A DNA stretch of 64,000 nt from positions 1 to 64,000 of the forward strand of contig CAILNT010000112.1 of the NCBI GenBank assembly GCA_903835655.1, written 5' to 3'. Shown here piece by piece: positions 12,128 through 55,187 of this stretch (position 1 is its first letter; every line of letters begins with the position of its first letter). Source of the DNA: an uncultured Pseudomonadota bacterium. GTDB taxonomy: Bacteria > Pseudomonadota > Gammaproteobacteria > Burkholderiales > Thiobacillaceae. The translations under genes were made by a program, and so were the position numbers. The notes beneath the pieces were generated by a model, which was given only the letters and a program-made list of their open reading frames with translations, did no database searches and was not told where the DNA came from.

Positions 12128-13981
12128 ATGGATATCTACCACCCTTCCATAATCGGCCTGGACACGGCCGTCCCCGCGCCACCCGGGGTTCCCGTTTCGT
12201 CCGCCTGTCTTACCGTATCCAGTTTGTTGCGTCTGGCACCGTCCTTGCCGCGCCTGGCTTCGTGCGAGCAGGCGCATGAAACCTTCCTTGCCGATGCATC
12301 GCTAATCGCACTGCCGGTGCTGGACGAGAAGGAAATGCCCTGCGCGATCATCGATCGCCACCCTTTCCTGGAATTCTTCAGCCGCAGTTACCGGCGTGAA
12401 TTGTTCGGCAAGCGTAGCCTGGGCCATTTCCTGGATGAACACCCGGAAATCAATCCGATGCGGAGGCCGCTCATGGTGGAAGCCGATGCCTCCCTGGATG
12501 ACGCAGCGCGCGTGCTCATGGCAGCACACCCCCAGCATATGATCAGCGCCTTGATCGTGATGCGTGAACATCGCTATCTCGGTATCACCAGCAGTCACGA
12601 ACTGTTCAACGAACTCACCCGACGCAAGCAAGAGGAACTGTATTTCCTGGCGCATTACGACGCACTCACGCAGATTCCCAACCGCATGCTGTTTACCGAT
12701 CGCCTCGGTCAGGCTTGCCGCGAGGCGCTACGCAGCGGGAGAGATGTCGCGCTGCTGTTCATCGACGTGGACCGTTTCAAGCAGGTGAATGACTCCATGG
12801 GCCATGCTTTCGGCGACGAACTGCTCTGTGCCATTGCGCGGCGCATGCTGGCCTGTGCGCGTGAGAGCGATACCGTTGCGCGCCTGGGCGGTGACGAATT
12901 CGCCATCCTCATGGACGGGGTGCGCGGACGGGAAGACCCGGAGTCGCTGGCGCTGCGTCTGGTCGAGTCGATGCGCGAGCCGGTGCGGATTCTCGATCGG
13001 GAGGTGAGCGTCAGCCTGAGTATCGGCATCGCCCTTTTTCCGCGCGACGATCGCGATGCGGAAACGCTCCTGTCCAAGGCCGACGCGGCGATGTACGAAG
13101 TGAAAACCAGTGGACGAAACGGTTACCGTCACTTCGAGGCAGGTTTTTCCACCTACAGCAGCGAGCGCTCCTCCCTGGAGTCGGAACTGAAACAGGCCCT
13201 GGATCACGGTGATTTCACGTTGTACTACCAACCGCAGATCGACCTCAGTAGCGGTGCCGTGGTGGGTGCGGAGGCGCTGATTCGCTGGAACCACCCCGAG
13301 CGAGGCTTGCTCGCTCCCGGCTGCTTCATCGAGATCGCGGAGGAGAGTGGTTTGATCGTACCCATCGGCGACTGGATCCTGGCCGAGGCCTGTCGTCAGC
13401 ACCGCGAGTGGATGCACCAGGGACTGCCGTCCTTGTGTCTGGGCATCAATATCTCGGCGTTGCAGTTCCACCAGCCGGACTTTGTAAAACGGGTCAAGCA
13501 CTTGCTGTCGCAGCCCGGTGTCGATCCCCATTTCCTGGAGTTCGAACTGACCGAGAGTATGGTCATGCGCAAGGCCTCAGCGGTGCTCGACATGCTCCAT
13601 GAACTTAAGGCGGCGGGCGTGAAGCTGTCGCTGGATGATTTCGGTACTGGATATTCCAGTCTGGGCTATCTCAGCCGTTTCCCCATCGATCGGCTGAAGG
13701 TCGACCAATCCTTCGTGCGCGGGGTCGATCGACTACCGGTCAATGCTGCGATCCTGCGGGCCATCACAGCCCTGGCTAAGAGTCTATCGCTCCATGTCGT
13801 CGCGGAGGGGGTGGAAACCGAGGCGGAACTTGCCATGGTCCGAGAATGCGGTTGCGATGAGTCCCAAGGCTATCTGCATTCTCGGCCCGTGCCCGCGGAG
13901 CGGTTTACAACTTGCTTGCAGGAAGTTGATCGTTTCCATCAGGCTTTGTTCGCCACGGCGGGTCTGCACGGCGCAGGCTGA
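12128..13981 (+). CDS. CBS-domain diguanylate cyclase/phosphodiesterase (GGDEF-EAL)
   Basis: The protein is 617 residues, with no membrane segment. Residues about 25-165 look like a CBS pair (LPVLDEKEMPCAIIDR, ISALIVMREHRYLGITSS). The GGDEF domain follows with DALTQIPNRML, an intact RLGGDEFAI site at residues 252-260 and a preceding RESD inhibitory I-site. The EAL domain has EALIRWNHPERG (EAL at 382-384), ELTESMVMR, DDFGTGYSSLGYL and a VAEGVETEAEL loop, so both catalytic sites appear intact. It would make and break c-di-GMP in response to a ligand of the CBS pair, perhaps an adenine nucleotide. GAGGGGG just before the ATG is the ribosome binding site. Confidence 0.92.
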   Translation: MDIYHPSIIGLDTAVPAPPGVPVSSACLTVSSLLRLAPSLPRLASCEQAHETFLADASLIALPVLDEKEMPCAIIDRHPFLEFFSRSYRRELFGKRSLGHFLDEHPEINPMRRPLMVEADASLDDAARVLMAAHPQHMISALIVMREHRYLGITSSHELFNELTRRKQEELYFLAHYDALTQIPNRMLFTDRLGQACREALRSGRDVALLFIDVDRFKQVNDSMGHAFGDELLCAIARRMLACARESDTVARLGGDEFAILMDGVRGREDPESLALRLVESMREPVRILDREVSVSLSIGIALFPRDDRDAETLLSKADAAMYEVKTSGRNGYRHFEAGFSTYSSERSSLESELKQALDHGDFTLYYQPQIDLSSGAVVGAEALIRWNHPERGLLAPGCFIEIAEESGLIVPIGDWILAEACRQHREWMHQGLPSLCLGINISALQFHQPDFVKRVKHLLSQPGVDPHFLEFELTESMVMRKASAVLDMLHELKAAGVKLSLDDFGTGYSSLGYLSRFPIDRLKVDQSFVRGVDRLPVNAAILRAITALAKSLSLHVVAEGVETEAELAMVRECGCDESQGYLHSRPVPAERFTTCLQEVDRFHQALFATAGLHGAG

Positions 13982-37203: not shown

Positions 37204-37245
37204 GGTTTGACCATGGTTAATCAGTACTGTAGGTACAGTCAAACC
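37204..37245. promoter_or_regulatory. Nested inverted repeats between soxX and soxB
   Basis: An outer perfect 8-bp repeat (GGTTTGAC at 37204-37211 and GTCAAACC at 37238-37245) encloses an inner perfect palindrome ACTGTA-GG-TACAGT at 37226-37239. The cluster lies 84 bp upstream of soxX and 142 bp upstream of soxB, in the divergent spacer, and is a candidate operator for a sulfur-responsive regulator. Confidence 0.6.
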
Positions 37246-37386
37246 AGACATGGTGGGGCTGGCGGGTGTTTTTCGGGGGCGAGGTTGGCGATTACCACAT
37301 TGCGGACTAACCCATTTCTACCATTTACCCGCGGCGCTGTCGCCGCAAGAATCCGCCACCTCCCTCCCTCCCAGGAACCCCCTGCC

Positions 37387-39108
37387 ATGTCCATGAATCG
37401 CCGCGAATTTCTGCAAATTCTTGCCGCTGCCGCCGCAGCCGGCTTTGCTCTGGATAGCCGATCGGTCCTGGCCGGCAATGCGCCGGCGCATTATTACGAT
37501 CTGCCGACCTTCGGCAATGTGTCGTTGATGCACATGACCGACTGCCACGCGCAGTTGCAACCGATCTATTTCCGCGAGCCCAACGTGAACCTGGGCGTCG
37601 GCGCTTCGGTGGGCCGCGTGCCGCACCTGGTGGGCGAGCATCTGTTGAAGGCCTACAACATCAAGGCTGGCAGCATCGACGCACACGCTTTCAGCTATCT
37701 CGATTTCACCGCCGCCGCCCGCACTTACGGCAAGGTGGGCGGCTTCGCGCACCTGAAGACCCTGGTCGACCAGGTGCGCGCTTCGCGCCCGGGCTCCCTG
37801 CTGCTCGATGGCGGCGACACCTGGCAAGGCTCCGCCACGGCCTTGTGGACCAATGCCCAGGACATGGTCGATGCGTGTATCGCGCTGGGCGTGAACGTCA
37901 TGACACCGCACTGGGAGATGACCTACGGCGCCGCGCGCGTCCAGGAAATCGTCAACGGCGACTTCAAGAAAGCGGGCATCGACTTCGTCGCCCAGAACGT
38001 GGTCACCAACGACTTCGGCGACCAGGTGTTCAAGCCCTACGTCATCCGCGAGATCAACGGTGTCCAGGTGGCCATCATCGGCCAGGCCTTCCCCTATACG
38101 CCGATCGCCAACCCGCGCTGGATGATGCCGGACTGGTCCTTCGGCATACGCGACGATTCCATGCAGAAATTCGTCGACGAAGCCCGCGGTCGCGGCGCCC
38201 AGGTAGTCGTGGTGCTGTCGCACAATGGCATGGACGTGGACCTGAAGCTGGCCAGCCGCGTCACCGGCATCGACGCCATCTTCGGCGGCCACACCCACGA
38301 TGGCGTGCCGCAGCCGATCCAGGTGAAGAACGCCGGCGGCATGACCCTGGTGACCAACGCCGGCTCCAACGGAAAATTTTTGGGCGTCATGGACTTCGAG
38401 GTCAAGGGGGGGCGGGTGGCTGGCTGGAAGTACCGCTTGGTGCCGGTGTTCTCCAACATGCTCAGTCCCGACCCGAAGATGGAGGCGCTGATTACCCGGA
38501 TACGCGCGCCCTTCGAGCACAAACTGAACGAAAAGCTGGCGGTGACCGAAGACCTGCTCTACCGCCGCGGTAATTTCAACGGGACCTATGACCAGCTGAT
38601 CTGCGACGCCCTGATGCATGTGAAGGGAGCGGAAGCGGCCTTCTCGCCGGGCTTCCGCTGGGGGACGAGTCTGCTGCCGGGCGATGTCATCACCATGGAG
38701 AAGTTGATGGACCAGGTCGCCATCACCTACCCCGCGACCACGCTCAACACCCTGACCGGAGCCGGCATCAAGACCATCATGGAAGATGTCTGCGACAACC
38801 TGTTCAACGCCGATCCTTACTACCAGCAAGGCGGCGACATGGTACGGGTGGGTGGGGTGCGCTACAGCGTCACCCCCAATGCGGGCATCGGTCACCGCAT
38901 CAACGACATGACGCTCAATGGCCAGGCGATCGACCCCAACAAGAAGTACAAGGTCGCCGGCTGGGCGCCGGTGGGGGAAGGCGTGAAAGGCGCGCCCATT
39001 TGGGACGTGGTCGCCGAGTACCTGCGCGAGGTGAAAGTCATCAAACAGGTCAAACTCAACCAGCCCAAGGTCATCGGCATGGGCAACAACCCCGGCATGG
39101 TGCTGTAA
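37387..39108 (+). CDS. soxB: SoxB, thiosulfohydrolase
   Basis: The protein is 573 residues from the ATG at 37387, chosen because MSMNRREFLQILAAAAAAG is a Tat signal. The metallophosphatase fold supplies the dimanganese ligands: LMHMTDCHAQLQP, LLLDGGDTWQGSA, VVVLSHNGMDVD and IFGGHTHDGVP. The C-terminal 5'-nucleotidase-like domain has NFNGTYDQLICDAL and FRWGTSLLPGDVI. It removes sulfate from SoxY-bound thiosulfate. soxYZ and soxCD are not in the window, so the rest of the pathway lies elsewhere. Confidence 0.97.
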   Translation: MSMNRREFLQILAAAAAAGFALDSRSVLAGNAPAHYYDLPTFGNVSLMHMTDCHAQLQPIYFREPNVNLGVGASVGRVPHLVGEHLLKAYNIKAGSIDAHAFSYLDFTAAARTYGKVGGFAHLKTLVDQVRASRPGSLLLDGGDTWQGSATALWTNAQDMVDACIALGVNVMTPHWEMTYGAARVQEIVNGDFKKAGIDFVAQNVVTNDFGDQVFKPYVIREINGVQVAIIGQAFPYTPIANPRWMMPDWSFGIRDDSMQKFVDEARGRGAQVVVVLSHNGMDVDLKLASRVTGIDAIFGGHTHDGVPQPIQVKNAGGMTLVTNAGSNGKFLGVMDFEVKGGRVAGWKYRLVPVFSNMLSPDPKMEALITRIRAPFEHKLNEKLAVTEDLLYRRGNFNGTYDQLICDALMHVKGAEAAFSPGFRWGTSLLPGDVITMEKLMDQVAITYPATTLNTLTGAGIKTIMEDVCDNLFNADPYYQQGGDMVRVGGVRYSVTPNAGIGHRINDMTLNGQAIDPNKKYKVAGWAPVGEGVKGAPIWDVVAEYLREVKVIKQVKLNQPKVIGMGNNPGMVL

Positions 39109-48001: not shown

Positions 48002-48790
48002 GTGGTCACTTCGCGTGACAATGCGCGTTATCAGGCGCTGCGTGGCCTGGCCTCGGAGCGGCGCGCGCGGCGCCAGGCTGGCGCCACCCTGATCGACGGC
48101 GAGCATCTGATCGAGTCCGCACTGGCCGCGGGCATTACACCGCGCCGCCTGGTGTTCTCCGCCAGTTCGCAGGCAAACCGGGTGGCCGGGTGGCAAGCGC
48201 GCCTGCCCCGGGTTCCCTTGCTACACCTGTCCGATGAGCTGTTCGCCACGCTCTCTCCGGTCGACTCGCCCACGGGCGTGCTCGCGGAAATCGCCATCCC
48301 CACGCGGGTCGACACCACGGCGCGGTTCGTGGTGCTGCTGGAGGATATCCAGGATCCAGGCAACCTGGGCGCGCTGCTGCGGACAGCCGCCGCCGCCGGA
48401 GTGGAGCAGGCGTATCTCTCGACCGCCTGCGCCGACGTCTGGTCGCCCAAAGTCCTGCGCGGTGGCCAGGGCGCGCACTTTCGCCTGGGGTTGGAGGAGC
48501 GTGCCGACCTGCTGGCGGTGGCGCGGGATTTCCCCGGCAGCCTTCACGCTGCAGTGCTGGGCGCGGGCGTCTCCCTGTTCGACCTGAATTTGCGCGATCC
48601 GGTGGCCTTCGCCTTCGGCAACGAGGGTGCGGGCCTGTCCGAGGCGCTGCGTGCCCTGGCCCGACCGTTCAGCATCCCCATGAGCGACCAGGTGGAATCG
48701 CTGAACGTGGCCGCGGCGGCCGCGGTATGCCTGTTCGAACGGGTCAGGCAGCAGGGCTTGCTGACTGGGACGGCTTCAGTGACTGCTTGA
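48002..48790 (+). CDS. SpoU/TrmH-family RNA 2'-O-methyltransferase
   Basis: The protein is 262 residues from the GTG at 48002 (MVTSRDNARYQALRGL fits the family start); a TTG at 47966 overlapping the previous stop would add twelve residues. The substrate-binding N-terminal domain has ATLIDGEHLIESALAAG. The SPOUT knot has LLEDIQDPGNLGALLRTAAAAG (motif 1), FAFGNEGAGLSEALR (motif 2) and IPMSDQVESLNVAAAAAVCLFE (motif 3). It methylates a ribose in rRNA or tRNA; which base is unknown. Its 3' end overlaps ppsR by 47 nt in convergent orientation. Confidence 0.9.
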   Translation: MVTSRDNARYQALRGLASERRARRQAGATLIDGEHLIESALAAGITPRRLVFSASSQANRVAGWQARLPRVPLLHLSDELFATLSPVDSPTGVLAEIAIPTRVDTTARFVVLLEDIQDPGNLGALLRTAAAAGVEQAYLSTACADVWSPKVLRGGQGAHFRLGLEERADLLAVARDFPGSLHAAVLGAGVSLFDLNLRDPVAFAFGNEGAGLSEALRALARPFSIPMSDQVESLNVAAAAAVCLFERVRQQGLLTGTASVTA

Positions 48791-49592
48791 TCAGTGCGGC
48801 GATCTCTTCCACCGAGCGGGTGGAAGAGTCGACGATGGGCACGCCCGCATCCGTCAGCATCTTTTCCGCCAGCCGCAGTTCCTCGCGGCAGGTCTTCAGA
48901 GAAGAGTAGACACTGTTGGGACGCCGTTCGCTGCGGATCTGCGCCAGCCTCTCGGGCGCCAGTGTCAGGCCGCGCAGCTTCGCCTTGTGCGGCAGCAGCG
49001 ATTGCGGCAGACCGGGCGCAATCCCCGAGGAGGAGTCGAAATTCTCCGGGGTGAGCGGGTAGTTGGCCACGTTCAAGCCGTACTGCATGGCCATGTACAG
49101 CGAGGTGGGCGTCTTGCCGCTGCGGGAGACGCCCACCAGGATGAGGTCCGCGCGCTGGTATTTCTCGACGGAGAGACCATCGTCCGCGGCAAGCGCGAAA
49201 TTCACCGCATTGATCCGCAAGTAGTAGTCGCTTTGCCCGCCCATGCTATGAAAACGGCCGCGCAGAGGCTCGGGCGGGTAGCCGATCTCGCCCACCATCA
49301 TGCCCAGGAATTGACCGTAGATGTCCATCACCAGAGCGCCGCAGGCCGCCAGGGCCGAGCGCGCCCCGGGATCGGTGAGCGTGGAATAGACCAGAGGTTT
49401 CAGGCCGCAGTCGCTCCAGGCCAGGCGGACTTGCTGCGCCGCGAGTTCCGCTTTTTCCTGACTGTCGATGAAAGGTAGACTGATGGTCGCGAATGCCTCG
49501 TCGGGGAATTGCGAGAGCAGGCTTTTGCCGATGATTTCGGCGGTGATGCCAGTGTGGTCGGAGATGAAGAAAACCGGGCGTGCGGGGGTCAT
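48744..49592 (-). CDS. ppsR: PEP synthase regulatory protein (kinase/pyrophosphorylase)
   Basis: The protein is 282 residues of the DUF299/PSRP family: [20 protein letters not shown] at the N-terminus, [20 protein letters not shown] as the P-loop, and [11 protein letters not shown]-like [12 protein letters not shown] after it. It switches PEP synthase by ADP-dependent phosphorylation and Pi-dependent dephosphorylation. It is divergent from ppsA across 37 nt, the standard arrangement. Confidence 0.95.
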
Positions 49593-49629
49593 GGGGATGG
49601 ATAGTTTGAACGTTCAGAGGACTCGGAAA

Positions 49630-52038
49630 ATGGACCATGCTGGTAGCAACACATTTGACTCTGTATTTGACTACATTGCGCGCTTTGAAACCTTGTCGAT
49701 GCAGGATATCGACAAGGTCGGGGGCAAGAACGCTTCCCTGGGCGAGATGATCCGCAATCTTTCCGACAAGGGGGTGCGCGTCCCCGGCGGTTTCGCAACC
49801 ACCGCCGACGCCTTCCGGGAGTATCTCTCCTGCAACGATCTGGGGGGGCGGATCGCCGCCCGGATGTCCACGCTCGATGTCGATGACACGCAGGCCCTGG
49901 CCCTGGCCGGGCGCGAGATTCGCGGCTGGATGCTGGCGGCCCCCCTGCCCGCCGGCCTGGAAGCGGGCATCCGCCACGACCACCGCCTGATGTGCGCGGA
50001 GGCCGGGGAAGCCTTGTTGTTTGCGGTACGGTCCTCCGCCACCGCCGAGGACCTGCCGGATGCCTCCTTCGCCGGGCAGCAAGAGACCTACCTCAACATC
50101 CAGGGCGCGGAAAATCTGATCGACGCGGTCAAGCGCTGTTTCGCTTCCCTCTACAACGACCGCGCCATCGCCTACCGCGTGCACAACCGTTTCGAACATG
50201 CCGATGTGGCCTTATCTGCGGGCATCCAGCGCATGGTGCGCTCCGATCTGGGCGCGGCCGGCGTCATGTTCACCATGGACACCGAGTCGGGTTTCCGCGA
50301 CGTGGTCTTCATCAACGCCTCCTACGGCCTGGGCGAGACGGTAGTGCAGGGCTCGGTGAATCCGGACGAGTATTACGTGCACAAGCCCATGTTGCGCCAG
50401 GGTAAACGCGCCGTGGTGCGCAAAAAACTGGGCGAGAAGGCCATTCGCATGGTCTTCTCCAGGGAATCCGTGGCCGAGCGTTCCACTCTGGTGGAGGAGG
50501 TGCCCGTGGGATTGCGCCACCGCTTCGCCCTGGAAGACGACGAATTGCTGGAACTCGCCCGCTACGCCCTCATCATCGAGGACCACTATGGCCGCCCGAT
50601 GGACATCGAGTGGGGGCGCGACGGCATCGATGGCAAGCTGTACATCCTGCAAGCCCGGCCTGAAACCGTGAAATCGCGCGATGGCAACGTCCAGGTCCGG
50701 TTCAAGATGCTGGAAAAGGGCCGCGTTCTCGCCCACGGCCGCGCCATCGGCGGCAAGGTCGGCCAGGGGCGCGCGCGCTTGATCCAGTCCCTGGCCCAGA
50801 TGCATGAAGTCCAGCCCGGGGACGTCCTGGTCGCGGACATGACCGATCCGGATTGGGAACCCGTGATGAAGCGTGCCGCAGCCATCGTCACCAACCGTGG
50901 CGGGCGCACCTGCCACGCCGCCATCATCGCGCGCGAACTCGGGGTGCCGGCGGTGGTGGGCACGGGCGACGCCACGAAAACCCTGCGGGACGGCCAGGAA
51001 ATCACCGTCTCCTGTGCCGAAGGCGAGGATGGCTACGTCTACGAGGGCCTGCTCAAGTTCGAGAGGACCGAGCGGGCCACGCAAACCATGCCCGAGATTC
51101 CGGTCAAGATCATGATGAACGTCGGCAACCCGGAGCAGGCCTTCCATTTCGCCACCTTGCCCCACGAAGGCGTAGGCCTGGCGCGCCTGGAGTTCATCAT
51201 CAGCAACGCCATCGGTATCCACCCGAACGCCGCGCTGGAATACCGCAGGATGCCCGATGCGGTGAAAACCGCGATCGATGCCAAGATCCAGGGGTACGGC
51301 GATCCGGTCAATTTCTATGTGGAGAAGCTGGTGGAAGGTATCGCCACCATCGCCTGCGCGTTCTGGCCCAAGCGCGTGATCGTGCGCACGTCGGATTTCA
51401 AGTCCAACGAGTACGCCAGCCTGACCGGCGGCGCGCAGTTCGAACCGCATGAGGAGAACCCCATGCTTGGCTTCCGCGGCGCCGGCCGCTATGCCAGCCC
51501 GCAGTTCCAGCGTGCCTTTCAGCTCGAGTGCCGCGCCATCAAGCGCGTGCGCGACGAGATGGGGCTCACCAACGTGGAAATCATGCTGCCCTTCGTGCGC
51601 ACCCTGGGGGACGCCGACGCGGCGCTGGCGGTGCTGGCGGAGAACGGACTGGAGCGCGGCAGCGGCAAGGACGGCCTCAAGATCATCATGATGTGCGAGA
51701 TTCCCGCCAATGTCCTGATGGCCGACGAGTTCTTGCAGCGTTTCGACGGTTTCTCCATAGGCTCCAACGACCTCACCCAGCTGACACTGGGTGTGGACCG
51801 CGACTCCAGCCTGGTGGCGGCGGCCTTCGACGAGCGCAATCCGGCGGTGAAGAAACTGTTGTCCGAAGCCATCGCCGCCTGCAAGCGCCACGGCAAGTAC
51901 GTCGGCATCTGCGGTCAGGGACCCTCCGATCACCCCGACCTGGCCGAATGGCTGGTGGATCAGGGCATCGACTCGCTCTCGCTCAACCCGGACACGGTGG
52001 TGAGCACCTGGCTGCGCCTGGGCGCGCGCGGGAAATAG
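49630..52038 (+). CDS. ppsA: Phosphoenolpyruvate synthase
   Basis: The protein is 802 residues from the ATG at 49630 ([20 protein letters not shown]); the frame is open upstream through the ppsR promoter. The ATP-grasp domain has [38 protein letters not shown] and [17 protein letters not shown]. The phospho-His is in [20 protein letters not shown]. The PEP domain has [18 protein letters not shown] and [19 protein letters not shown]. It converts pyruvate to PEP for gluconeogenesis, which with PFOR and reversible PFK fits autotrophic or low-sugar metabolism. Confidence 0.97.
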
Positions 52039-52072: not shown

Positions 52073-52489
52073 TCATAGTGGGCCGCATTCCCTGCGGTAT
52101 TTCCGCCGCTCGCTGGCCAGCGTGACCTTCTGGCTCCTGCTCGGTTTTTCCCGCTCGCGTGCGGCTTCGATCTTGTCGAGCAGACGCTCGCAGGCGAGTT
52201 CCTGTTTTCGTGCCGCGGCGCGTTTTTTTTCCAGTGCCCTGGCAGCGATTTCTTCGCGCTTCCTGAGCGCTTCGGCAGCGGCGATGTCCCGGTTGGCGCA
52301 GGTGCGTGCCGCCTCGACTTCGTGGACGTTGAGCGGCGGGGGCGGCGACGGCGGCGCCAGGGTCTGGCTGGCCTCGGGGCAGGGCGCCTCCTGGTAGATC
52401 ACCCGCTCGCCCTGGTGGCATTTATGAATTTCCGCATGGGCTGGCGCACTCGCCAGAGCGAAGGCGGTGAACAAGATGCGAACGAACAT
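52073..52489 (-). CDS. DUF4124-domain periplasmic protein
   Basis: The protein is 138 residues. A signal peptide (ILFTAFALASAPAHA) is followed by the DUF4124 pattern EIHKCHQGERVIYQEAPCPE (Cys pair). A Pro-rich linker (LAPPSPPPPLN) and a charged helix (RKREEIAARALEKKRAAARK) make up the rest. Such proteins are small periplasmic factors of unknown function. It is the last gene of the minus-strand run that begins with the SQR-like gene. Confidence 0.75.
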   Translation of the reverse strand: MFVRILFTAFALASAPAHAEIHKCHQGERVIYQEAPCPEASQTLAPPSPPPPLNVHEVEAARTCANRDIAAAEALRKREEIAARALEKKRAAARKQELACERLLDKIEAAREREKPSRSQKVTLASERRKYRRECGPL

Positions 52490-52573
52490 GGAAGCCTCCC
52501 GAGCGTTTGATCGTCAGATACAAACAATATGTCATCGCGGCCGAGTCGGGGTGCCCGACCGCGATGCGAGCCG

Positions 52574-53158
52574 CTATCTGCCCATCGTGACCTTGTTCTG
52601 GTCGATGTTGTAGCCCCAGGGCAGGCCGGCATTCTTCCAGCCATTCAGCGTGCGTTTGCCCTTGTTCGGCCCATCCTTGGCGAGATCGCCTTCGAAGCCG
52701 TCCACCACCGACCACACGTTCGTATAGCCGTAGCGCGACAGCAAGTCGGCGGACATGGCACTGCGGTCTCCGGAGCGGCAGATCAGGACGACGGGGTCGT
52801 TCTTGTCGACGCCCTTCTCCAGCGCGAAGGCCTCGAACTGGGAGAGGAAGTCGGGGTTGGGATTGCGCGGGAAAGTGTTCTTTTCCTTGTCCCACTTGTC
52901 GTAATGCATGATGCCGAAGGAGGCCTGCCCGTCGAGTCCGTCGGGGGAGCCGACGAACAGCACTTCCTCGAGGGTGCGCACGTCCACGAACAACACCTTG
53001 GGCGCATGGGCCTTGAGAAATTCCGGCACCTCACGGGCCTCCAGATACAGGCCCAGCTTGCTGACCTTGATCTTGGGCAGGCTGGCCGGGTCGACCGCGG
53101 CGGCATCGAGGGCGCAGAGGGATAGCAGGAACGTCACCATCAGAATCAGGAATCGCAT
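52574..53158 (-). CDS. Exported rhodanese-domain protein
   Basis: The protein is 194 residues from the ATG at 53158 (AAGGAG before it). A signal peptide (FLILMVTFLLSLCALDAAA) is followed by one rhodanese domain: KVLFVDVRTLEEVLFVG and the active loop VVLICRSGDRSAMSADLLSRYG with the catalytic Cys. It is periplasmic and could transfer or accept sulfane sulfur. Its position after DUF302, haemoglobin and an SQR-like flavoprotein fits a sulfide-handling group. Confidence 0.85.
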   Translation of the reverse strand: MRFLILMVTFLLSLCALDAAAVDPASLPKIKVSKLGLYLEAREVPEFLKAHAPKVLFVDVRTLEEVLFVGSPDGLDGQASFGIMHYDKWDKEKNTFPRNPNPDFLSQFEAFALEKGVDKNDPVVLICRSGDRSAMSADLLSRYGYTNVWSVVDGFEGDLAKDGPNKGKRTLNGWKNAGLPWGYNIDQNKVTMGR

Positions 53159-53193
53159 GTCGGTCTCCTTGTGTGCGAGGGTGGTCGCCTGGA

Positions 53194-53583
53194 TCAGGCG
53201 CGCAGTTTGGCGAGGACTTCCGCCAGGTGGGATTGCGCTTCCGCCATAGCCGAGCTGATGTCCGGATGCCCGGCGCTGGCGGCGACCACGCCGGGATCCT
53301 GCAAGGCGATGCGGGTCACGCCCGGCGCGATTTCGTAAGCGCAGCAGCCGCAGGGCAGCAGGGCGCCGGCGTCGCGATCGGCCTCCAGGACGCGCCTGGC
53401 GATGCCTGGGGCGCACACGCCGAGCAGGCGGTAGGGCGGGATGTCGTGGTCCAGCTTGGCTTTCATGATGGCCTGGACGTCGACATCCGAGACGATGCCC
53501 ATCCTGGATTCGGCCAACGTGGATTTGAGCCTGGCGATGGCCTGGTCGATGGGCAGAGCGAGTTCAACAGTGTGTGCGTACAT
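53194..53583 (-). CDS. DUF302-family protein
   Basis: The protein is 129 residues, cytosolic. The DUF302 fold is visible: PIDQAIARLKSTLAESRMGI, VQAIMKAKLDHDIPPYRLLG and VCAPGIARRVLEADRDAG, with GALLPCGCCAYEIAPGVTRI. The C-terminal segment DPGVVAASAGHPDISSAMAE is also conserved. DUF302 proteins often occur with sulfide- and thiosulfate-oxidation genes, but no enzymatic role is known. It lies 33 nt after the haemoglobin gene. Confidence 0.85.
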   Translation of the reverse strand: MYAHTVELALPIDQAIARLKSTLAESRMGIVSDVDVQAIMKAKLDHDIPPYRLLGVCAPGIARRVLEADRDAGALLPCGCCAYEIAPGVTRIALQDPGVVAASAGHPDISSAMAEAQSHLAEVLAKLRA

Positions 53584-53616
53584 GGGTTCCCTCGGTTCAG
53601 AAAGGTTGAGACCCGT

Positions 53617-54057
53617 CTAGCCTACCTGAGCTTGCGGCTGCATGCCATTCGCCGGCTGGTTGCGCATGTGGTCGCCGACCTTGACGATGGCCCGGTAGAG
53701 CTCCGCGCGCAGCCCGGCGTCCGCCACGGTTTCTTCCAGCGCCAGGTGCATGCAGTGCAGCCACTGGTCGCGCTCGGTATCGCCGATGGAGAAATGCAAA
53801 TGGCGGCGGCGCAGCATGGGGTGGCCGTGTTTTTCTACGTACAACTGCGGCCCGCCCAGCCAGCCGCAAAGGAAGTCATACAGTTTCTGGCGCGAGCCGG
53901 AGAGATCCTGCGCATGCATCTTGCGGATGCCATAGGCCTCCGGCAGCTCGTCCATGTGGTCATAGAAACGATCCACCAGTTGCCTCACCCCGGTTGCGCC
54001 ACCGATGCGCTCGTAATGGGTTTGCGGGTCGATGGGGGGGCGGGTCGTCGAAATCAT
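53617..54057 (-). CDS. Group II truncated haemoglobin
   Basis: The protein is 146 residues with the 2/2 globin pattern: ERIGGATGVRQLVDRFYDHM, LYDFLCGWLGGPQLYVEKHG, the proximal His region HPMLRRRHLHFSIG and the G-helix DQWLHCMHLALEE with the group II Trp. It can bind O2, NO or sulfide; group II members usually scavenge oxygen or NO. Its ATG overlaps the stop of the SQR-like gene (ATGA), which makes cotranslation with a flavoprotein likely and suggests a reductant partner. Confidence 0.92.
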   Translation of the reverse strand: MISTTRPPIDPQTHYERIGGATGVRQLVDRFYDHMDELPEAYGIRKMHAQDLSGSRQKLYDFLCGWLGGPQLYVEKHGHPMLRRRHLHFSIGDTERDQWLHCMHLALEETVADAGLRAELYRAIVKVGDHMRNQPANGMQPQAQVG

Positions 54058-55187
54058 GTCCGGAGTGCCTTCAGGTAATGCCGTTCAAAAATGCGCTTGG
54101 CCCAGTGGAACAGCCTCAGGGGGGGGAGGAGGAAGGCGCGTTTCTCGTCGCGGTAGACCAGGATGCCCCGGTTTCCGGTGTCGACGATGCAGATCAGCTC
54201 TACCTTGAAGCGCGCCGTCGGCGCCTTGCCGTGCACTGCCAGGAGCAGGTTTTCCGCCGCGGCACGGGCTTGCAGGTCGGCGATGTGCGCCTGCTTCGGC
54301 ATCCAGTCCGGGCCGGGAAAGCTGCCGGCGTCGCCCGCCACGAAGACGCGCTCTGCGCCTTCCACCCGACAATGGACGTCGGCCTTGAAGAAGCCCCCGG
54401 GAGTCAACGGCAGGCCGGCATCCGCGGCCCAGGCCGGCCCGGTCAGTCCGGGCATGAACAGGATCAGGTCGGCGTCGATGTGGCCACCCTCGGTGGCCAC
54501 GCCTTTTCCCGAAAAACTCAGGAGCTTGTGGCCCAGATGGGTGTCGATGCGGCGCTTGGCCATTTCCGACATCAGGCCGGAAACCGCCCTTTCGCCGAGA
54601 CGCTTGCCCGGTTCGGCGGCTGCATTGAAGAAGGTCAGCTCGATTTCGTCGCGCTTGCCGCGTTGGCGCAGCAGCGTATCCAGGCCGAACAGCAATTCGA
54701 ACATCGGGCCGCCGCGCACGGCAGAGGGTTCGTTGGGGTTGCCGCCAAAGCCCAAGGCGATGCGTCCTCGGCGCAGGGCCGCGACGCGGTCGCGGATCGC
54801 TTCCGCCGACGCCACGCCCTCGCACAGCGTCAGCGCATGCTCGATGCCGGGCAGTTTCTTGATGAAGCGCCCGCCACTGGCGATGAGCAGAAAATCGTTT
54901 TCCACCGGTCCATGGTCGGTCTGCACGGTACGGCCGCCGTTGCCGAGGCCGGTGACGCGGCCGGCGATGAACTCGACGGCGTGGTCCTTGAAAAAACGTT
55001 CGAGCGGGAGTGTCAGGTCGCTTCCCCTGCGTAACCCGGAAGGAATCCAGATCAGGCTGGGCAGGAAGACGAACTCGGCTTTGGGCGCGATCACGGTGAT
55101 CCGGGCGCTGGGTGCGCGGCGGCGCAGTTCGCGCACGGCGGTGAGCGCGGCAAATCCGGCGCCGAGGATGACGATGCGGGGAGTCAT
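54054..55187 (-). CDS. Sulfide:quinone oxidoreductase-like FAD protein
   Basis: The protein is 377 residues from the ATG at 55187. FAD motif PRIVILGAGFAALTAVRELR, second LLIASGGRFIKKLPGIE and a late AERVFVAGDAGSFPGPDWMPKQ identify the SQR/NDH-2 superfamily. Cys122 (TLCEGV) and Cys333 (LICIVDTGN) correspond to two of the three SQR cysteines; the middle one, normally near residue 160, is missing (NEPSAVRGG). It may be an atypical SQR or another quinone-linked flavoprotein. It heads the group with haemoglobin, DUF302 and rhodanese. Confidence 0.82.
   Translation of the reverse strand: MTPRIVILGAGFAALTAVRELRRRAPSARITVIAPKAEFVFLPSLIWIPSGLRRGSDLTLPLERFFKDHAVEFIAGRVTGLGNGGRTVQTDHGPVENDFLLIASGGRFIKKLPGIEHALTLCEGVASAEAIRDRVAALRRGRIALGFGGNPNEPSAVRGGPMFELLFGLDTLLRQRGKRDEIELTFFNAAAEPGKRLGERAVSGLMSEMAKRRIDTHLGHKLLSFSGKGVATEGGHIDADLILFMPGLTGPAWAADAGLPLTPGGFFKADVHCRVEGAERVFVAGDAGSFPGPDWMPKQAHIADLQARAAAENLLLAVHGKAPTARFKVELICIVDTGNRGILVYRDEKRAFLLPPLRLFHWAKRIFERHYLKALRT

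Follow-up and report, generated by a model that had tools for sequence, protein, structure and literature searches.

What does a truncated haemoglobin do beside an enzyme that resembles a sulfide:quinone oxidoreductase (SQR)? The question is raised by five open reading frames, all on the minus strand and spanning 55187 to 52073, in a 64,000-nucleotide stretch (the window: positions 1 to 64,000 of contig CAILNT010000112.1, assembly GCA_903835655.1) from an uncultured bacterium of the Thiobacillaceae. They encode an SQR-like flavoprotein, which we call SqrF, a haemoglobin (HbO), a DUF302 protein, a rhodanese and a small fifth protein. We read the locus, with a probability of about 0.6, as a sulfide-stress module for quinone reduction, with the haem protein as the partner of SqrF and proteins of sulfane-sulfur chemistry alongside.

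The flavoprotein and the haemoglobin

SqrF (54054 to 55187, minus strand, 377 amino acids) matches Pyr_redox_2 in Pfam (E 1.1e-17) and has cysteines at 122, 273 and 333. An earlier note on this DNA, made from the sequence alone, had seen that this SQR-like enzyme lacks the middle of the three catalytic cysteines. The absence is real: in an alignment of the window protein with the best 80 named loci (from 583 confirmed, so that at least 583 exist), position 158 is arginine in 81 of 81 rows. It does not make the enzyme an odd SQR, as the whole pattern fits a type VI SQR. C122, C333 and F367 are equally without variation (81/81 each), and C273 is retained in 79 of the 81 rows. At the quinone site, position 332 is I or V in 73 rows, 333 is C in all 81 and 334 is I in 79. 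C122 corresponds, at an offset of +1, to C121 of the Thiocapsa enzyme TrSqrF, a residue whose role is reported in Duzs 2021. The same constant offset relates I332-C333-I334 and F367 of the window protein to the TrSqrF quinone site, given as V331-C332-I333 and F366 in PMC9666304. The position of TrSqrF Trp369, near the quinone tail, is H370 in the window and W in 8/81 rows.

PMC9666304 also describes type VI SQRs as having one C-terminal helix, not two. In the AlphaFold model of the flavoprotein (predicted local distance difference score 93.8, predicted template-modelling score 0.91), helix 358-376 stands alone after the last strand, a single predicted C-terminal helix. The predicted fold is that of an SQR, with Z scores of 43.8-44.3 against type I SQRs, 39.7 against flavocytochrome c, 39.6 against a model of YjlD, 38.9 against human SQR and 38.5 against NDH-2. 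Type I SQRs are also the closest solved relatives by sequence, at about 24% identity in the fold alignment, and a search of NCBIfam gave below-cutoff matches only. The residue pattern and the single helix together place the protein with the type VI SQRs, a known type that is described as the high-sulfide form (PMC9666304, PMC5061849). The absent middle cysteine is, on this placement, a marker of type and not a defect.

Other identities were set aside. Type I SQRs have three catalytic cysteines (128/160/356 in A. ferrooxidans), and the position of C160 is held here by R158. Neither flavocytochrome c nor NDH-2 was accepted as the nearest fold, since their Z scores are 38-40 and those of type I SQRs about 44. 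A degenerate or inactive SQR was rejected because the pattern is common to all 81 rows and because pN/pS is low: the uncorrected ratio, from window genes compared with up to eight relatives, was 0.09-0.40 for SqrF, HbO, DUF302 and rhodanese. The fifth gene gave 0.48-0.61.

The haemoglobin gene (53617 to 54057, minus strand, 146 amino acids) begins within the end of SqrF, the two reading frames overlapping by 4 bp (ATGA), so the coupling of flavoprotein and haemoglobin claimed at the outset holds. From its sequence the globin is of the bacterial-like 2-on-2 kind, a group II truncated haemoglobin: it matches Bac_globin (PF01152, E 4.2e-40), its best solved relative is 2xyk (E 3.6e-40), and the HbO structure 1ngk follows at 5.5e-19.

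The genome also carries dsrA, soxB and at least one other SQR, on contig C109, with cysteines at 127, 159 and 353, and taken together these make the host a sulfur oxidiser. SoxB, a protein of thiosulfate oxidation, is encoded in the window itself, some 13 kb away from the operon (37207 to 39108, plus strand; TIGR04486, 883 bits, over the cutoff).

Gene order in the window and in its relatives

Relatives were surveyed in 61 genomes, 23 from the genus, 14 from the rest of the family and 24 from the rest of the order; counts include the window's own genome. Most are drafts, regions were fetched only around matches to SqrF, HbO or rhodanese, and neighbours were called by tblastn with single queries (E<=1e-5). 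Orthologues of SqrF, defined as full-length matches of at least 58% identity (which leaves out a match of 57% over 68 residues in G056), were found in 20 of the 61: 14 in the genus, four in the rest of the family and two in the order. In 13 of these 20, SqrF has HbO downstream at a distance of up to 1.5 kb (genus 11/14, family 2/4, order 0/2). Three genus genomes with SqrF do not show this: in G001 HbO sits on a different contig, in G016 both genes are near contig ends, and in G008 the HbO gene has an internal deletion.

The rest of the gene order recurs as well. Of the 20 genus genomes that have HbO, 15 carry DUF302 no more than 300 bp behind it, and a rhodanese follows DUF302 in 12 of the 23. 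The order SqrF-HbO-DUF302 is found in nine other genomes across the genus and family, and all four genes stand in order in five of the 23 genus genomes (the window's own, G005, G009, G015 and G019, with a 1.2-kb insert in G015). The earlier note would have given up its module had the order been peculiar to this genome; the order recurs.

In relatives the operon often continues with a haem-c protein of the Tll0287 type (CxxCH in 10 of 10 checked) and then a SLAC1 channel. No SLAC1 was found in the window genome, and its Tll0287-type genes lie only on contigs C29 and C79, so this pair has probably been lost from the window locus. A longer operon has been shortened to the five genes seen here; the neighbours that it usually has are the haem-c Tll0287-type protein, SLAC1, a NifX-like protein, a FisR-like activator, or cytochrome bd.

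Downstream of HbO in the window, at spacers of 33 and 35 bp, come DUF302 (53194 to 53583, minus strand) and a single-domain rhodanese (52574 to 53158, minus strand). The DUF302 protein, of 129 amino acids, matches its family at E 1.1e-18, has a PCGCC motif and has 1j3m and 1q9u as solved relatives; the rhodanese has 194 amino acids, a CRSGDR loop and a family match at E 4e-9. The names given to the first four products from the letters alone thus agree with Pfam. The label DUF4124 for the fifth does not, as that protein (52073 to 52489, minus strand, 138 amino acids) has no Pfam match at E<=0.1.

The fifth gene stands apart. The five genes do share a strand and short spacers, with gaps of 33-84 bp, as first described, but the 84-bp gap before the last of them contains a terminator-like hairpin of 13 pairs (52533 to 52566, minus strand). 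The gap folds at -35.3 kcal/mol (z -2.3); the scan that gave the hairpin found four terminator-like sites where 2.9 were expected. The hairpin suggests that the last gene may in part be transcribed on its own and that the first four, a compact co-directional run, probably make up the operon proper. A rhodanese gene immediately preceding the fifth gene occurs in the window and in none of the other fetched regions. The fifth protein recurs behind SLAC1 in six genus genomes (44-58% identical by tblastn), where it ends the longer operon. The five-gene unit of the earlier note is therefore kept as a recurring run of four, with the fifth set off by the hairpin and the whole cut down from something longer. 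Its description as periplasm-linked fits only two of the proteins: by eye, the rhodanese and the fifth protein have signal-like N-termini, but the globin and the DUF302 protein have none.

Beyond the operon lies an ordinary pair, phosphoenolpyruvate synthase and the divergent regulator PpsR (48744 to 52038). A plasmid search returned 169 records, every one below 60% identity.

A FisR-like activator and cytochrome bd

Among the 80 named loci, some of which share genomes with the genus and family set (e.g. L052, L056, L059 and L067), 21 have a sigma54 activator with PAS_4, sigma54 AAA and HTH_8 domains within the fetched stretch. Of the 23 proteins in this activator cluster, 22 carry the motif C-x10-C-x6-C, the exception being a different activator. 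The motif is also present in the best homologue in the window genome, and in none of the three other sigma54 activators checked there. We take the third cysteine of FisR to be residue 71. In Cupriavidus FisR a tetrasulfide links Cys53 and Cys64 (PMC9495516), the spacing seen in our motif, which supports the view that the activator linked to the relatives' operons is a FisR-like sensor of sulfane sulfur.

A -24/-12-like site scoring at least 24 of 28 was found in 26 of 27 fronts adjoining the activator (23/24 without duplicate genomes), against 2.3% of 3000 random 400-bp pieces, on a score that is our own weighting of the consensus, with fronts that differ in length from the controls and some that share one site because their genomes are closely related. 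Opposite the activator in G028, G029 and G031 stands an operon led by HbO and without SqrF, with Tll0287 and SLAC1 following in the last two. The site between activator and HbO-led operon in the SqrF-less loci L163, L164 and L165 scores 27, 24 and 28 of 28. HbO may thus be a core target of the FisR-like regulator.

A second layout brings in cytochrome bd. Of the best 80 named loci, 22 have HbO no farther than 1.5 kb from SqrF, and 19 have cydB upstream of SqrF at up to that distance. YbgE comes immediately after SqrF in 12, their matches overlapping by 19-25 bp at tblastn edges, which need not be the start codons. The order cydB-SqrF-YbgE-HbO is found in 10 of the best 80, and eight of these 10 also have the sigma54 activator. 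Full cydA-cydB-SqrF-YbgE-HbO runs adjoin a FisR-like activator in L072, L081, L085, L092, L094, L096, L099 and L100; in the last three a second, distant SQR-like gene (23-24% identity) comes right after HbO. On a tree of the 81, a quick method gave minimum numbers of changes of 10 for HbO linkage, eight for cyd and nine for the activator. E. coli bd oxidases resist sulfide (PMC4815019), and by analogy the cyd-SqrF layout suggests that electrons from sulfide could pass as quinol to a sulfide-proof oxidase. In the window genome this acceptor was rejected, as no cydA was found there; nor was it found in 18 of the other 22 genus genomes (19/23 in all), and eight of the 11 with a SqrF-HbO pair, the window's included, show none.

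Further strong sigma54-like sites lie elsewhere in the window, at 12233 (plus strand, 26/28) and 31455 (minus strand, 25/28).

Proposed role and competing explanations

If the module works as we propose, SqrF would oxidise HS- to zero-valent (poly)sulfur at high sulfide, through FAD and C122/C333, and would pass the electrons to the quinone pool. The quinol could feed the cytochrome bd of the same operon in some relatives; in the window genome, which has three heme-copper oxidase subunit I genes and no bd found, it would feed other oxidases. At the same time HbO, translationally coupled to SqrF, would bind a small ligand, most likely O2 or H2S, and so lessen the clash of sulfide with haem oxidases. 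Sulfane sulfur may be handled or trapped by rhodanese and DUF302, and in the relatives the FisR-like sigma54 activator would sense sulfane sulfur and turn the operon on. Sulfide as substrate and as signal we infer from family features and context; the haemoglobin's job and ligand, like the roles of DUF302 and rhodanese, are proposals. Electrons from the flavoprotein to quinone, with rhodanese for sulfane sulfur, as suggested before, remains the best account, and the order recurs outside this genome.

A number of observations weigh against this account. The nearest relative, G008, whose SqrF and DUF302 are 91% and 96% identical to those of the window, has kept SqrF with an HbO gene cut down to its two ends (L031, 1 to 1821) and a rhodanese broken after a few codons, and no second HbO was found in its draft (84% complete, with an assembly error possible); HbO is thus not indispensable to SqrF. 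HbO is also present in 29 of the 41 genomes without SqrF, and in 58 of the 80 named loci it does not occur within 1.5 kb of SqrF (in another count, 14 of these loci were left out as lying too close to a contig end). No HbO or cyd neighbours were detected at the SqrF loci of Thiothrix, Cocleimonas and the like, and cytochrome bd (PF01654) has no match in the window genome. The type VI placement is a putative one, made from residues and a predicted model. An Acinetobacter FisR lacks the sensor cysteines (PMC7315123), so the motif is no general mark of FisR and supports, but does not prove, a sulfur sensor. Upstream of the window operon the best sigma54-like score is 17/28, below the shuffled mean of 18.7; no site of at least 23/28 lies on the operon strand between 52000 and 56500, no sigma54 activator stands beside the operon and no sigma70-like promoter was found at it.

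On the site scans, an adjacent sigma54 promoter was rejected as the window copy's own control. The FisR-like gene of this genome is on contig C99 (L187, 7180 to 11204), divergent from a NifX-like gene (PF02579), with a 27/28 sigma54-like site between the two and a phage integrase just beyond. With neither site nor activator beside the window operon and the FisR-like gene on C99, the window copy resembles the downstream end of an ancestral operon, moved away from its regulator, and the C99 pair is possibly its old front end.

The earlier note had left sulfide and nitric oxide (NO) side by side. The globin could be the central protein and answer NO or nitrosative stress, with SqrF a bystander whose quinol shares the membrane pool. 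Truncated haemoglobins are classically tied to NO and O2 chemistry, HbO-DUF302 occurs in genomes without SqrF (G006, G011, G014, G017 and G020), and the SqrF-less operons of G028, G029 and G031 face the activator too. That activator, however, has the cysteine spacing of FisR and the domains PAS_4, sigma54 AAA and HTH_8, whereas NorR has a GAF domain, and NorR is only one of 25 below-cutoff NCBIfam matches for the genome's own copy. A search of the genome for cytochrome cd1 nitrite reductase gave none (no search aimed at copper nitrite reductase or at NO reductase as such was made). Sulfide is a likelier signal than NO, a role in sulfide-to-quinone transfer is the better reading, and one centred on NO is quite unlikely.

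We also consider it unlikely that the locus serves microaerobic O2 supply or the support of an oxidase, with HbO delivering or buffering O2 for high-affinity respiration and SqrF one of several electron donors. The cydB linkage in 19 of the 80 named loci and the cydB-SqrF-YbgE-HbO order in 10 would suit such a role, but the eight of 11 paired genus genomes without cydA would not, and the activator motif indicates sulfur. Gene content that differs among genomes through insertions and losses, the lost HbO of G008, an HbO linkage that changes at least 10 times on the tree and the hairpin before the fifth gene could all be taken to mean a loose neighbourhood of separately promoted genes, joined by rearrangement and with no functional unity. 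This is very improbable given SqrF-HbO-DUF302 in nine other genus and family genomes, SqrF paired with HbO in two distinct operon layouts, the ATGA coupling in the window and pN/pS below 0.41.

The sulfide-stress module has parallels in known systems. Type VI SQRs (SqrF of Thiocapsa roseopersicina, also Chlorobium and Geitlerinema sqr2) are alike in cysteines, quinone-site residues, C-terminal helix and SQR fold, and differ in their partners: the haemoglobin, DUF302 and rhodanese of the window, and the SLAC1 and haem-c proteins of its relatives, are not named in the available parts of the type VI literature. The FisR operon of Cupriavidus pinatubonensis is reported to carry a persulfide dioxygenase and a different SQR; like it, the relatives have a sigma54 activator whose cysteines are spaced by 11 residues and, before sulfide-oxidation genes, a -24/-12-like site, but the copy in the window is flanked by neither activator nor sigma54 site. 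E. coli is not known to have an SQR at its bd locus. Some relatives have SqrF within a cydAB run, a likeness to the sulfide-resistant bd respiration of E. coli (PMC4815019) that the window genome, with no bd oxidase found, does not share. In another lineage DUF302 is linked to SQR in the Synechocystis sqr plasmid operon (PMC5061849), which has another SQR type and, in the available parts of that paper, no mention of a haemoglobin. The judgement that the combination could not be named as a described system therefore stands in part: the enzyme is of known type, but its association with a haemoglobin and a FisR-like activator (with or without bd) was not found described in the open-licence literature, searched largely at listing level.

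More broadly, and tentatively, betaproteobacterial sulfur oxidisers may share a sulfide-induced module of respiratory defence that joins a type VI SQR to a haemoglobin dedicated to it, in some cases with cytochrome bd, under a FisR-like, sigma54-dependent switch. Group II truncated haemoglobins are widespread and, to our knowledge, mostly have no assigned job. If the proposal is true, this would be one whose part in sulfide oxidation is genetically fixed. The recurrent pairing of HbO with a high-sulfide SQR, in some lineages under a likely sulfur sensor and next to cytochrome bd, offers a testable role, that of keeping respiration running under sulfide that would poison haem oxidases. It also links DUF302, and SLAC1 together with Tll0287, to sulfur.

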